Shown piece by piece: positions 9,701-24,685 of a stretch of DNA of 32,335 bases; the first letter of the stretch is position 1, and every line of letters begins with the position of its first letter. The notes under the pieces are model-generated. The model had not been told where the DNA came from. It searched no databases and worked only from the letters and a program-made list of their open reading frames with translations. The stretch is from a virus: positions 1 to 32,335 of the IMG/VR virus record IMGVR_UViG_3300037891_000307. The stretch is one strand, 5' to 3'. The position numbers were made by a program, and so were the translations under genes.

Positions 9701-11077
9701 TACGATTATCTCTGCCATTATCTCCCCCGAAGTACCAAAAAGACCTCCAATTTGCTCTGTCATATTATCTACAGCAGAATCGTATTGTTCCTCAGTTAGT
9801 GTAACCCCCTCTTCATTCGCTATACGAACAATATCTTTTCTAAAATCTCTATCCGTTCCTACATTACCCACTCCTGGGATTGCCTCTACAAAGCTTTCTC
9901 CAAAAGAAGTTATACCCTCTCCAATCTTATCTAAAAATGGAATATTAAACTCACTATCCTCAGCGTTGAAAAACTCTCCCCAACCCTTAGCTACTGCTGC
10001 TGGATTTTCATTTAATAGTAACGCCCTAGATAGAGCGTTGAAGTTTAATTCTGATTTTTCTTTTTCTTCTAATAGAGAATTTATCTTTCCTTTTTCTGCA
10101 CCCTCTGGAAGCTTTTCTGCTTCTGCCATTTTAGCAATATCAGCTACAGAAACCTTTCCGTATAAACCAAACTCTCCTTTTGCCTCCTCTAATTTATCAC
10201 CAAAGTAAGCATCCACCATAGAGTTGTCTATAGCGTTTATATTATCATACTCTTGCTTATATCGAGAGCTAAACTTTTGAAAATCTGTTTTAGCTTCTTT
10301 AGCATATTTAGCCTCTAAATCATTTACTAATTTTCTTTTCTCTCCATCTATCTTTCCTGTCTCTGGATTTATGAAAAACTTTTCAGAATCTTCTCTGAAC
10401 TGTTTTACATAATCTTTTAATTCATATACTTTTGCATTTTGCTCTGGAGTTCTTTTCTGATAAGGTATTTGCCTTAACTGGTAATACTCATCTAACTTTT
10501 GTTTAGCCTCATCTATTTTATCTGAGTCTAACCCTAATGAGTTAATACCCATGTTTCTCATGGACTTTAAATAATCCCTTTTAACAAAGTCTTCTGCCTC
10601 TTCCATAGCCGAAGCATCACCTCTATCTAAATAAGCTTTAGAGGAGTCAGATAACATCTTATTGAAGTATTCCTTTCCTTGCTTATTTAATAAGTCATTC
10701 TTCTTTTGCTCTATAAACTGAAAAGCATAGTTGTCATCTATCTCTGAAGGAAGATTATCTAAAATATCTTCTGTAGTGCTTGATAAGTAATCATATTCTT
10801 CACCTAATGCTTTAGGAACACCTGTCTCCGCATCTCTTTTTCTAATAAACTCCTCATTACCCTCCTCTACTTCTTTTATAGTAATAGGATCTTTTTTGAA
10901 GTCTAAAACATCTTTTTGCTCTGGTTGCTCTAAATCTCCCTTATCTTCTAATGTTTTAAAGTCTTCTTGCTCAACAGTTAACGCTGACCTAACAGGTTTC
11001 TTTTGTTCACCCCTCCAATCTTGAGAATCCGAAGAACCATCTTCCGAAACAGATTCCATATCTTCTTGAACCTCCAT
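3791..11077 (-). CDS. Giant internal (ejected) virion protein, main body
   Basis: From the ATG at 11077 this frame encodes 2428 aa, but the frame is already open upstream to the A10 run at 11129-11138, and the N-terminus probably lies in the neighbouring ORF (see the frameshift entry). The protein is helical and charged. Residues 1-110 are acidic. Segments at about 450-475 (MAEIIVTTLLTK) and 595-615 (KFLMTLILVGTFGTG) are hydrophobic and could enter membranes. Strongly charged coiled-coil stretches lie at about 1146-1240 and 1400-1460. The C-terminal third (about 1650-2250) is the best conserved-looking part, with ATEETQQSSAVHEL (about 2160) and FFKIFTMFKTSQSQYLRK (about 2185), a pattern I associate with very large polyvalent or internal proteins of podoviruses, followed by the hydrophobic AMFQVILPSLFGLV. 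The tail is very basic. It follows the other internal proteins and precedes the fibres. Likely role: packaged in the head or tail and ejected with the DNA. No protease, lysozyme or polymerase motif was identified. Confidence 0.8.
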   Translation of the reverse strand: MEVQEDMESVSEDGSSDSQDWRGEQKKPVRSALTVEQEDFKTLEDKGDLEQPEQKDVLDFKKDPITIKEVEEGNEEFIRKRDAETGVPKALGEEYDYLSSTTEDILDNLPSEIDDNYAFQFIEQKKNDLLNKQGKEYFNKMLSDSSKAYLDRGDASAMEEAEDFVKRDYLKSMRNMGINSLGLDSDKIDEAKQKLDEYYQLRQIPYQKRTPEQNAKVYELKDYVKQFREDSEKFFINPETGKIDGEKRKLVNDLEAKYAKEAKTDFQKFSSRYKQEYDNINAIDNSMVDAYFGDKLEEAKGEFGLYGKVSVADIAKMAEAEKLPEGAEKGKINSLLEEKEKSELNFNALSRALLLNENPAAVAKGWGEFFNAEDSEFNIPFLDKIGEGITSFGESFVEAIPGVGNVGTDRDFRKDIVRIANEEGVTLTEEQYDSAVDNMTEQIGGLFGTSGEIMAEIIVTTLLTKNASSAANLAGKVSKLVNSLGGGKKAASIVGEGLLALEQAIAFDLTSQGSAAMGMGEFFGAKGAEKVLELLSKGKSAKFMKFIKPLVRIAGSTTAGQVEEYSGEYLEQAFRNGFLSKETFRNTFGRNYDEAKDKFLMTLILVGTFGTGAEVGNMYKLGKAYYKDSGDQTQLNDVEKAFNEIQNAKKEEVGERFDDMSEAELEQFAKDNNVDISELKKTIEAAKKPEEGQTLEDVSEEDTETTEVEPGDITAKSEEVVEEKATDIPENQSSKERLNRRSKEEKSLFPDILEKTNSLSASKSTISDFTKSENGKPTAVYVNRKGEVDVVITGSKDSKSTDMVSFKRVYNKSGLESTNQFTSKFQIQSKDANFKQMLKDAQEKLPENHEWVENKSISIDGLRVFNKSLNFGYTTKKDSDGNVVTRDTPINIATKENVDTKGEGAFNTFESSSKEEANKKAEEVKKAFPGIEVEIETKSRGPLKGYKVISKLPVLVLSESSKQKIKIESRKKELALEASKKAKEPTIDTTTEEAVSEEESILSEDLEALEDEVSDALGDTFKDNIGETVTYNGEVGVLKQEGQSLVVENNNKIQVLGNIDELSNKPISSMKVKQGGELEAETADVTKDVPSDLITEIDGVPHRIVNARTRKGEPYVTVKNLETGIQNKISGEEGKPLLDQFKSYKGRKRGEAKAEAKARTEEEYNALSQEQKDKEQKDFDALVEKEVKAEQELESKMKEEESLESNLKKEEEAITKEAEELKDLGEQELEEEVKKLRKKALVISNKQGDFLVKKKPDGSYSVSKKNQETGRYVPFTGKSNVKKRAELVDQFNKEISKAESKKIDESAELSESIEKDKRDAIEKALDKVIEATSMKGNNAYNNILGVPINIAHGALKIVKASYKVSRDLSKAVQQGINSMTSNGYNVNEVEFKKFVINEIKAGNKKIEIAKKQKQKENKKNEQKKKREERKKTLKDESKSEKIKREAEESRKRDADLEASLNSLIEDALGTKKPVTKRDVTKIQKRFKDFISANKQILREASPALNATIANKIASVSSPATLKSTAEYISKITKDTKFKKEQEARVKLIEDIKKELQDKSFSRKGSAPRQGKIASEIQDFLKKVRQKLDYTQEMASKERGVILNSISDIDDMTIDKKRMLLALSFADIENKSKEELDNLTQLLKEYKKEGRELLSEKKAARSKKYQEGIDDLLTAILAGDKEVSPNVSNASTKSNLAAIASRFSGVAKVYNRIVNQTENWAGLINNLNRLTGKKAGGREKARDFLKDKFITPVKKAAYNKTKNAMAIYDSIEENKKSIFGKDVAAVNKDLNKKIFIRDANGNKIPSGKKGEYVTITKGRAMAIYNMQRDSSLEATLDEMNKTKDKILIDESNNIMSENPKLREYADWVHNNFYPNYQPRINKEYRKHYDHDLAMREDFSPIRRLDVDPADVNMLSPTQNIASTLNGSLIERVNNTKPLDLSKSLDETMFSYIDSMEHFIAYTDVIKFLNKTLKNQRVKEVIKQKYGSKVNQIIDKAISDLANKPKKDSATIEILSKIRKNITTAILGGNLPSAIKQLTSAPAYSVAEGVDTTDWVKQSSLMLTTKEGRKDLLDIWNSPYVRNRLKTTGFSRDTALSFTQDVDELSSRGTSIRNLSMFMTKYGDVGAILIGGTPYYMSMKKKYIKEGMSEAEAKDKAMFDFVNATEETQQSSAVHELSNLQRGSEFFKIFTMFKTSQSQYLRKGFYSPMRNLAKGRGTVQDIKNIAMFQVILPSLFGLVTKGLLPIKRLLEDDDEFDKDLKDLGKDVVFGNFGGLPFVGESVKAYLQYVDEDGKRRASTGFNSPAIEGVSKLTNAFAKATADLLEEEDFDTEEFFEDLLIPLVEMRTGFPVNNAKKLTKDNLERIGKGNFSHEKLMKYLGWSDYSLGIDKKEKTRLEKKIEKRKKRSNSEERLKSKLKARKEAREKRMNR

Positions 11078-11345
11078 CTGTGGAGTCTCCTCTTGGGGTA
11101 GTTCTTCTGAAGATACTTCTTCTTGGTCTTTTTTTTTTACTATTGTAAAGGTTATATTCTTTTAGTATTTCAACATTAGACTCTTCACTATAAGCATCTG
11201 GATCGTAAGATTGATAAAAATCTGTCAGAAACTTATCAGGGTCTGAGCTATATTCTTTTACCAGTTCGTCTGAAACTTCTTCACTATAAGCTTCTGGGTC
11301 ATAAGATTGATAAAAATCTTTTACTAAAGTTTTAAAATCTGGCAT
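11007..11345 (-). CDS. Upstream ORF encoding the probable N-terminus of the giant protein
   Basis: The 112-aa ORF starts with MPDFKTLVKDFYQSYDPEAY and contains two 32-aa repeats. Up to residue 71 it is acidic and well behaved, ending NLYNSKKK. After the A10 run the frame becomes Arg/Gly-rich (RPRRSIFRRTTPRG), unlike anything around it and typical of out-of-frame reading. In the other frame the same DNA reads DQEEVSSEELPQEETPQ and continues without interruption into the acidic N-terminus of the 2428-aa protein. I therefore read residues 1-71 as the true beginning of the giant gene. The alternative is a genuine 112-aa protein made by unshifted ribosomes. The leader (AAAAGTAAAAA before ATG) is A-rich, as for other genes here; the upstream gene stops 10 nt before this ATG. 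Confidence 0.75.
   Translation of the reverse strand: MPDFKTLVKDFYQSYDPEAYSEEVSDELVKEYSSDPDKFLTDFYQSYDPDAYSEESNVEILKEYNLYNSKKKRPRRSIFRRTTPRGDSTDGGSRRYGICFGRWFFGFSRLEG
11129..11138 (-). other. A10 slippery run: putative +1 (or -2) frameshift or sequence indel
   Basis: On the coding strand the context is AATAGT, then ten A residues, then GACCAAGAAGAAG. The upstream ORF reads AGT AAA AAA AAA AGA; the downstream gene needs AAA AAA AAA GAC. Dropping one A (or adding two) joins them into one reading frame of about 2517 codons from 11345 to 3791. Mechanisms to consider are transcriptional slippage on A10, programmed ribosomal frameshifting, natural phase variation, or a homopolymer error in the assembly. 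This is the longest homopolymer I see inside coding sequence in the window. Confidence 0.75.
11182..11319 (-). repeat. 96-nt-period tandem duplication at the N-terminus of the giant protein
   Basis: Positions 11182-11223 and 11278-11319 are 42-nt copies with three mismatches, two of them silent and one giving Glu versus Asp. They encode DFYQSYDP(E/D)AYSEE twice with a 32-residue period. The near-identity at the DNA level suggests a recent duplication or gene conversion. Confidence 0.85.
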
Positions 11346-11355
11346 TTTTTACTTT

Positions 11356-13026
11356 TTATTGTTTATCTATTATTGCTTGTCTTTTATTTCTTTCTACAAT
11401 ACTAATACCTTTTTGGTTGGGATCTAATTGTTTCCCCCCTTTAGTTTTTGTTTTTGAACTAGAAGAAGATTTGCTAGAAGGAATTTCTTGATTTGTAAAA
11501 TCTTTATAAGCTTGACTAAGACCTTGGTCTGCTAAAAACTGTTTTGTTTTTTCATACCACTCAAGATATTTATTCTTTCTTTTAGGACTAGCTTCATACT
11601 GCTGAACTATGTCGTCATGATGTAAATGATAAGGCTCTAAAACTCTTTGCTTTCCTTCACCCGTACCACTTTCTTTTAAAGCAACGTAATACCTTTTTAC
11701 TGATCCTTTAGGAGCATTCTTTTTAAATTCATCTGTAGCTATAGAAGTTGTGTCTATAGGCATACCACTTAAATTAACTCCGTTACCAGAAATATAACCT
11801 TCAGGGAAAGCATCTACCATATAAGAAGTCTGAACTTTCCAATCTGCTTCTTTAGTACCCTTTTTTAAATCTTCGTAATAAAAATTCTGACCTGATTCAG
11901 CTATACCACCAATCGTTGTTTTGTCATCATCTATATAATGATCTTCCTTCTGCTTAAGCATTGCTATTAAAAAATCTCCTTTTATAGGAATAGCACTTGA
12001 AGATGGTAGTCCTCTATGAAATATTGGAGCTTCATAAGATATAGGGTTGTATGTATTAACATCCCCATTGTTGTAAGCTAAAACTCCTTTTAATTGTTTT
12101 TTAGTACGGTTTTTAAAAATACCTACACCTTTTTTCTCCTTAACACCGTAAGCAACAGGCATATTAACGAGTGTAGCCTTAGAACTAAAAGGAAAAGCTC
12201 TAGCTTCTGGCGTTCCCTCCGAAGAATCAGAACTTCTACTTGAAGGAAAAAACTTAACATCTAAATCTGTTTTTTGAAAATTAGGCAGAGTCTTTAACAG
12301 ATTATCAACAGCATCATCTCCAAACTCTTCTTCCGTTTGCTCTTTACCATAATAACCTACTGCCGCCATTCTTTCACCCTCCACTAAAGATTGTAAATCT
12401 AACTGCTTATTACTTGTTCTACTTTTTAGATACCTCCCAACTACATCGCCTTGAGCATCTTTTTGCTCAACATACTTAAGACCTCCCTCAGTAGTTCCAA
12501 ACTTTTGAACAGCTTTCTGCAACTTCTCACTAATAACTGACATATCTATTTTAGGATGAAGAGGATATTTAGAGTAGTCAAAATCTCCTGAATGATTAGA
12601 GTCTCCAAAACTTCTTAGATTATCCACATCTTTTTTATAATACTTCTTTGGAGAAAGAATAGCGGCTTTTAGCATATCATTATAAATCTTCTGAGCCTCT
12701 TTAGAAGAAGAGGCAAACTGAGTTAGTTTATTCATCATCTGCTGATTCTTCACAGTAGCATCGAAGTCTCCTTTTATTAAAGACTTAGCATTCTTCTTAA
12801 CAAAGTTTTGATACTCATTAACCATAGGCTTAAAAGAAGATATATCTCTAGACCACAACTGACTCATATCAGAAGCCTTAGCCATAGCACCCTTTAGCTC
12901 CTTGTCTTTCTTTTCCGCTTCTGCCAACTTATCCTTAAATATAGAATTGTAAGTGCTCTTAAATACTTGAGCCTCCCCTTTACCTATACCCGTAGATGTT
13001 CCTAATGGATTACTTGGTTTCGCCAT
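11356..13026 (-). CDS. Internal virion / cargo-type protein (556 aa)
   Basis: I do not recognise a named domain. The N-terminal 130 residues are Lys/Ala/Gln-rich and helical (FKSTYNSIFKDKLAEAEKKD), the middle is mixed alpha/beta, and residues about 510-530 are a Ser/Lys linker (SSKSSSSSKTKTKGGK) before a basic C-terminus. No signal peptide, membrane span or catalytic motif is visible. It starts inside the 3' end of the 62-aa gene (17-nt overlap in another frame), which indicates translational coupling, and is followed 10 nt later by the start of the giant internal protein. Sitting between the 261-aa glycine/alanine-rich protein and the giant protein, it most probably belongs to the set of proteins packaged in the head or tail and ejected into the host. 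Confidence in coding is high and in function moderate. Confidence 0.7.
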   Translation of the reverse strand: MAKPSNPLGTSTGIGKGEAQVFKSTYNSIFKDKLAEAEKKDKELKGAMAKASDMSQLWSRDISSFKPMVNEYQNFVKKNAKSLIKGDFDATVKNQQMMNKLTQFASSSKEAQKIYNDMLKAAILSPKKYYKKDVDNLRSFGDSNHSGDFDYSKYPLHPKIDMSVISEKLQKAVQKFGTTEGGLKYVEQKDAQGDVVGRYLKSRTSNKQLDLQSLVEGERMAAVGYYGKEQTEEEFGDDAVDNLLKTLPNFQKTDLDVKFFPSSRSSDSSEGTPEARAFPFSSKATLVNMPVAYGVKEKKGVGIFKNRTKKQLKGVLAYNNGDVNTYNPISYEAPIFHRGLPSSSAIPIKGDFLIAMLKQKEDHYIDDDKTTIGGIAESGQNFYYEDLKKGTKEADWKVQTSYMVDAFPEGYISGNGVNLSGMPIDTTSIATDEFKKNAPKGSVKRYYVALKESGTGEGKQRVLEPYHLHHDDIVQQYEASPKRKNKYLEWYEKTKQFLADQGLSQAYKDFTNQEIPSSKSSSSSKTKTKGGKQLDPNQKGISIVERNKRQAIIDKQ

Positions 13027-24656: not shown

Positions 24657-24685
24657 AAAAAAAAAGAGAGGCTTTTAAACCTCTC
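24657..24685 (-). terminator. Rho-independent terminator after the 371-aa gene
   Basis: On the minus strand GAGAGG and CCTCTC form a 6-bp stem (extendable by a T-G and T-A pairs) around TTTAAAAG, followed by nine T residues. It lies 31 nt beyond the stop of the 371-aa gene and ends the head module. Confidence 0.85.

Follow-up and report, generated by a model that had tools for sequence, protein, structure and literature searches.

The A-run that splits a giant gene in a crAss-like phage contig is probably a one-base length variant at the edge of an exchanged module

A long A-run separates two open reading frames at the 5' end of a giant phage gene, and the question raised by this locus is whether the two frames represent an evolved arrangement with two products or a single gene that has been interrupted by a one-base change. 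In metagenomic viruses it is easy to dismiss a frame break at a homopolymer or to read too much into it; in the present case the gene structure is settled by relatives. The DNA analyzed here (the window, 32,335 nucleotides) is a 32-kb fragment of a virus contig with its genes on the minus strand. It is a fragment of a crAss-like phage (Crassvirales), an assignment based on its muzzle (PF25731, 1.7e-18, above the cutoff), portal (phrog_6547, 1.7e-110) and head or virion structural protein (phrog_13704, 1.6e-28), which match crassvirus or PHROG families.

The run lies at 11129–11138 and reads T10 on the plus strand, flanked by C at 11128 and A at 11139, so that the coding (minus) strand reads AGT-A10-GACCAAGAAGAAG. 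It is contained within a 112-aa ORF (11007–11345, minus strand) that consists of an N-terminal module and an out-of-frame tail. Residues 1–72 of this ORF are acidic, contain two copies of FYQSYDP[ED]AYSEE that were read directly from the translation (copy 1, FYQSYDPEAYSEE, 11277–11315; copy 2, FYQSYDPDAYSEE, 11181–11219; both on the minus strand) and end in NSKKK, after which the Arg-rich tail RPRRSIFRRTTPRG follows. The body of the giant gene is a 2428-aa ORF (P0002, 3791–11077, minus strand) as called from the ATG at 11077. Its frame is open back to the A10 run, reading KKKDQEEVSSEELPQEETPQ-MEVQEDMESVSEDGS, and includes an acidic linker (DQEEV...DWRGEQ, 11003–11128, minus strand) located 3' of the run that is conserved in relatives. 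Removal of one A from the run results in a single gene of 2517 codons (69 + 2448), and a shift of -1 from the A10 frame leads into the third frame and not to the giant protein. An earlier sequence-only reading had described the upstream ORF as acidic and repeat-containing up to NSKKK with an Arg-rich tail after the A10 run, had traced the 2428-aa frame back to the run, and had proposed a gene of about 2517 codons with one fewer A and a requirement for a +1 or -2 shift; re-reading and translating the ORFs bears out each of these points.

Searches of IMG/VR contigs identified five homologous giant genes (L002, L003, L004, L005, and L011) whose proteins share 22–55% amino-acid identity with the window protein over the aligned positions. 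In all five relatives the giant gene is a single uninterrupted ORF with an in-frame AAA AAA AAA (KKK) at the same site (L002 9839–16534, L003 9749–16489, L004 9746–17098, L005 9716–16771, and L011 from 17147). The L011 gene exceeds the end of its locus and is open up to that point, and a search of the whole contig identified an open frame of 2596 codons. A few bases separate the upstream gene from the start of the giant gene in each relative, and the ATG at 11345 in the window is similarly placed. The sequences flanking the run are DSKKK-VQEEV (L002), GVKKK-VQEEP (L003), DSKKK-VQEEP (L004), GKKK-DQEEP (L005), and NPKKK-EQEEQ (L011); read in the A9 frame the window gives NSKKK-DQEEV, and the linker aligns with those of the relatives in that frame. 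At the position of the window's Met at 11077, L002 and L003 also have Met, but L004 and L005 have Val and the aligned residue in L011 is Gln; this lack of conservation disfavors a translation start at the 11077 ATG. The whole A9 genes in five out of five relatives and the non-conserved Met at 11077 indicate, as judged from the aligned genomes, that the split is private to the window contig and that the tenth A is its own change. A genuine arrangement in which a separate ORF holds the beginning of the giant protein is thus not supported by the relatives, none of which (0/5) is split there; of the two features for which conservation in relatives had been proposed as a check, the run is conserved (as A9) and the split is not. 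A degenerate repeat pattern search identified no near-identical strains with other run lengths, in a searched set that may omit near-identical records. Relatives were not found in bacterial genomes, and neither the N-terminal module nor the linker has a significant match among GenBank phages.

The two ORFs are probably one gene that has been split by a one-base change in the length of the A-run rather than an evolved two-product arrangement. A gene of about 2500 codons would encode the giant protein, with a frame that passes through a run that is A9 in the family; in the window contig the run is one base longer and the frame breaks after KKK. The tenth A would reflect a change in homopolymer length that arose either as an error in the consensus or by replication slippage; if it is real, the full-length protein would be produced solely by polymerase slippage on the run (loss of one A or gain of two). 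Among the A/T runs of the window the A10 run is the longest, and therefore the site where an error or a mutation is likeliest, as sequencing and replication slip most at such runs. The window contig is not generally of poor quality, with no other interrupted gene noticed and with coding A8 runs that are in frame. Another tract, non-coding and T9 at a homologous place in these genomes, reads T10 in one out of nine loci (L010), which indicates, as a rough gauge, that tracts of this kind do change in length by one base in these phages. This tract (T9 in coding sense) is located in the head-gene region, at 24657–24665 in the window (A9 on the plus strand) and around position 4200 in L006–L013; it is conserved and is probably a terminator.

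Two considerations speak against a mere variant or error. The conservation and uniqueness of the A9 run set it apart from ordinary Lys codons and suggest that the run may have some function. Furthermore, a ten-base run is usually called correctly in short-read sequencing, and if the window derives from a short-read contig the A10 could be real and viable. A real A10 could reflect phase variation, in which the run in the DNA flips between A9 (whole gene) and A10 (truncated gene) and switches the giant protein on and off. A coding homopolymer beside a variable module resembles contingency loci, and one genome carries A10 and five carry A9, but a phage without its giant virion protein should be severely impaired, and the run is A9 in all five relatives; we consider phase variation very unlikely.

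The position of the run relative to the surrounding genes bears on how it has been maintained. Pairwise DNA comparisons of the relatives show 80–94% identity over kilobases, broken by approximately 1.0–1.35 kb without similarity (in L002 versus L003 the dissimilar stretch is shorter and contains a weak 72% segment). Two coding parts make up this dissimilar cassette: the C-terminal portion of the upstream gene and the N-terminal module with which the giant gene begins. In the window the upstream gene encodes 556 aa (11356–13026, minus strand); its N-terminal part is conserved and its C-terminal part corresponds to the cassette exchanged in relatives. In three of the pairs similarity returns 1–2 bases ahead of the A9 run, and in the fourth pair the distance is 11 bases. 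These alignments place the run at the exact 3' edge of the exchanged cassette, where an exchangeable module meets the conserved linker, a position that the sequence-only reading had not reported. The cassette is located 5' of the A9 in L008, L009, L010, and L013, and the counterpart in the window spans roughly 11139–12500. The joint exchange of the C-terminal part of the upstream protein and the N-terminal module of the giant protein suggests that the two may interact.

The N-terminal module of the window gene (69 codons up to NS, 11139–11345, minus strand) is exchanged between relatives and is predicted from its single sequence to form four helices (pLDDT 83, pTM 0.63), a predicted fold without a meaningful match in the PDB. 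The module of L005 is predicted to form two beta-beta-alpha repeats (pLDDT 80), and the same slot would thus hold modules of different predicted folds. The slot corresponds to 9716–9931 in L005, 17147–17365 in L011 and 11130–11345 in the window, and most modules are internally duplicated. L005 and L011 share a common module type (47% identity) and L003 and L004 share another (35%), whereas the giant-gene body of L005 is nearest to that of L004 (80%) and the body of L003 is nearest to that of L002 (67%), indicating that the module types do not follow the body. The run lies at a joint where crAss-like phages swap the N-terminal end of a giant cargo-like protein along with the C-terminal end of the protein encoded upstream.

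A conserved DNA patch encoding QEDMESVSEDGSSDSQ is present 3' of the run (11021–11068, minus strand). The patch, GATACGGAATCTGTATCGGAAGATGGTTCTTTGGAA, comprises 43–55 bp and is 83–92% identical between relatives; it is found in L002–L005 and L011 and also in an otherwise unrelated giant gene (L014, 18229–18271). Even in L014 its core of approximately 43 bp is 91% identical, with the rare codons TCG and TTG retained, and a blastp comparison of 353 codons revealed no other convincing similarity to the L014 giant gene. At the junction of L002 and L003 an island of 115 bp with 89% identity, including the A9 run, is surrounded by dissimilar DNA on both sides. Each contig contains one copy of the patch. 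The possibility that the linker patch tags other proteins for packaging was rejected, since no second copy occurs in the same contigs. The patch may be a recombination patch or a DNA-level element.

The alternative of greatest weight is that the run is a selected transcriptional-slippage site that gives two products. In the A9 relatives most transcripts would then be translated into the whole protein, and the smaller share carrying one additional A into a short product, consisting of the N-terminal module and a basic tail that ends approximately 25–41 codons later; in the A10 window the ratio would be inverted, with the short product as the default and the giant protein requiring slippage. The runs in the window and the five relatives were counted across the compared stretch, in called genes that total approximately 49,600 codons. 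In each of the six genomes the sole coding-strand run of at least nine A in called genes is the one at the homologous site, and synonymous-codon shuffles within genes predict approximately 14.8 such runs in total across the six genomes. Outside the compared stretches the contigs of the relatives contain a few other A9/T9 tracts, which are located outside ORFs or at the edges of small ones. The called genes contain 38 KKK stretches, and KKK is encoded entirely by AAA in 5/5 cases at the run site of the relatives and in 0/33 cases elsewhere; given a Lys AAA usage of 0.64, 26% of KKK stretches are expected to be all-AAA, and the chance of 0/33 is 0.74^33 (approximately 5e-5). Both counts indicate that A9 is generally avoided in these genomes and kept at the giant-gene site. 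The run also persists in L011 despite a replaced 5' flank and a diverged linker. The frame entered after one additional A is open for 25–41 codons in six out of six genomes, which is longer than at >99% of the positions in the same genes, and two-product genes of this kind exist in Citrobacter (tssM1) and Yersinia (tssM3) (PMC4256274).

Several observations weaken the case for selected slippage. Compared with synonymous shuffles the additional frame is mildly long (P = 0.009 in the window and 0.10–0.16 in the others), from lineages that are not independent. The genomes represent about three independent lineages (the window, L011, and L002–L005, which have common junction DNA), and under codon drift alone an AAA triplet persists with a probability of 0.3–0.5 per distant pair. 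The more distant giant genes of L014 and L015 do not contain the A9 run. RNA folding 3' of the run revealed no consistent structure (z from -2.3 to 0.0), and a downstream hairpin was rejected as the GATACGGAATCTGTATC stem predicted in L002 and L004 fails to pair fully in L011 or the window. Cassette exchange can also explain the unchanged inheritance of the run. Reporter experiments indicate that poly(A) insertion is much more common than deletion with T7 RNA polymerase and that, for the runs under test, E. coli RNA polymerase gives no rescue through deletion in poly(A) (PMC6260861). With deletion slippage that is low (T7) or undetected (E. coli), the A10 run would produce little giant protein; if the same is true in the host, a phage with A10 would be short of giant protein, which favors an error or a minor variant. 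Considering the small number of lineages, the chance persistence of AAA, the mild frame length and the lack of an RNA signal, programmed slippage appears unlikely on balance, although a serious contender. The earlier proposal that the phage controls the dose of its giant protein by slippage is accordingly a possible but unlikely reading: the conservation and uniqueness of the run agree with it, and the weak signal in the length of the additional frame and the inconsistent RNA structure do not. The run is a plausible candidate slippage site. A more specific and rather doubtful version is that a single A9 slippage site is kept at the joint of module and body and would yield, alongside the full-length protein, the module on its own with a basic tail, whichever module is present, and that the window represents the inverted A10 state. 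With A9 avoided elsewhere and retained at one module junction, the locus offers a direct test case for programmed slippage in a virion gene of a phage.

A programmed ribosomal frameshift at A_AAA_AAA_G could generate a comparable pair of products, as a -1 shift in the A9 relatives would lead to the Arg-rich short product. The heptamer A_AAA_AAA is slippery for ribosomes (dnaX-like sites), and on A9 a -1 shift and the insertion of one A lead into the same frame. However, a -1 shift from A10 misses the giant frame and was rejected as a source of the giant protein in the window, and of the features of dnaX-type sites the heptamer is present but a consistent stem-loop 3' of the run was not found. 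A ribosomal mechanism is thus extremely improbable, and a one-base length variant of a single gene remains the preferred explanation.

The giant protein itself is probably a capsid-cargo protein, based on its size and position. P0002 has no PHROG, Pfam, or NCBIfam match, and similarity to cargo or RNA polymerase-associated families was not found. Residues ~1889–2264 weakly resemble, by tblastn, large "coil containing" proteins from Vibrio phages of approximately 43 kb (23–25%, E ~1e-7 to 1e-9), which suggests that both have a domain in common that belongs to proteins inside the virion or ejected from it. In the middle of the L011 giant protein, residues 1171–1216 contain a metallopeptidase-like domain (PF06114, above the cutoff). 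The giant proteins of L004, L015, and the window do not contain this domain; the body is mosaic as well. In phicrAss001 the proteins gp45–gp50 are Crassvirales cargo proteins that are carried inside the virion (PMC10172136). The likeness is that very large proteins are encoded just past the muzzle gene, and the difference is that the giant protein of the window is without a family match.

Among known slippage systems the closest counterparts are tssM1 of Citrobacter rodentium, where an interrupted frame is rescued at an A11 run by approximately 20–25% slippage, and tssM3 of Yersinia pseudotuberculosis, where an intact frame gives mainly full-length protein and a truncated by-product (15–25% slippage overall; PMC4256274). 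Both have a coding A-run near a frame break, and the two genes form the same pair of states as the A10 window and its A9 relatives. They differ in that slippage was shown by RT-PCR mass spectrometry and western blots, compared with sequence conservation here, and in that they are bacterial secretion genes and not a phage gene that probably encodes a virion protein. The Shigella genes mxiE, spa13, and spa33, discussed in PMC5009743 and PMC4256274 as experimentally established cases of transcriptional slippage, likewise produce two products per gene from short homopolymers, in different genes and hosts. Blochmannia genomes contain more than 100 coding runs of at least nine A each, and one-base poly(A) indels are possibly corrected by transcriptional slippage (PMC3017870). 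The one-base poly(A) indels in otherwise intact genes resemble the window, whereas the tracts are abundant in Blochmannia and runs of at least nine A are avoided here except at the giant-gene site. Finally, short boundary sequences have been proposed to drive phage mosaicism, as discussed in PMC3029335. The short conserved patch between non-homologous flanks resembles such sequences and fits recombination at module edges, with the difference from the cases discussed there that the junction is located inside one gene, after the N-terminal module, and includes the A9 run.
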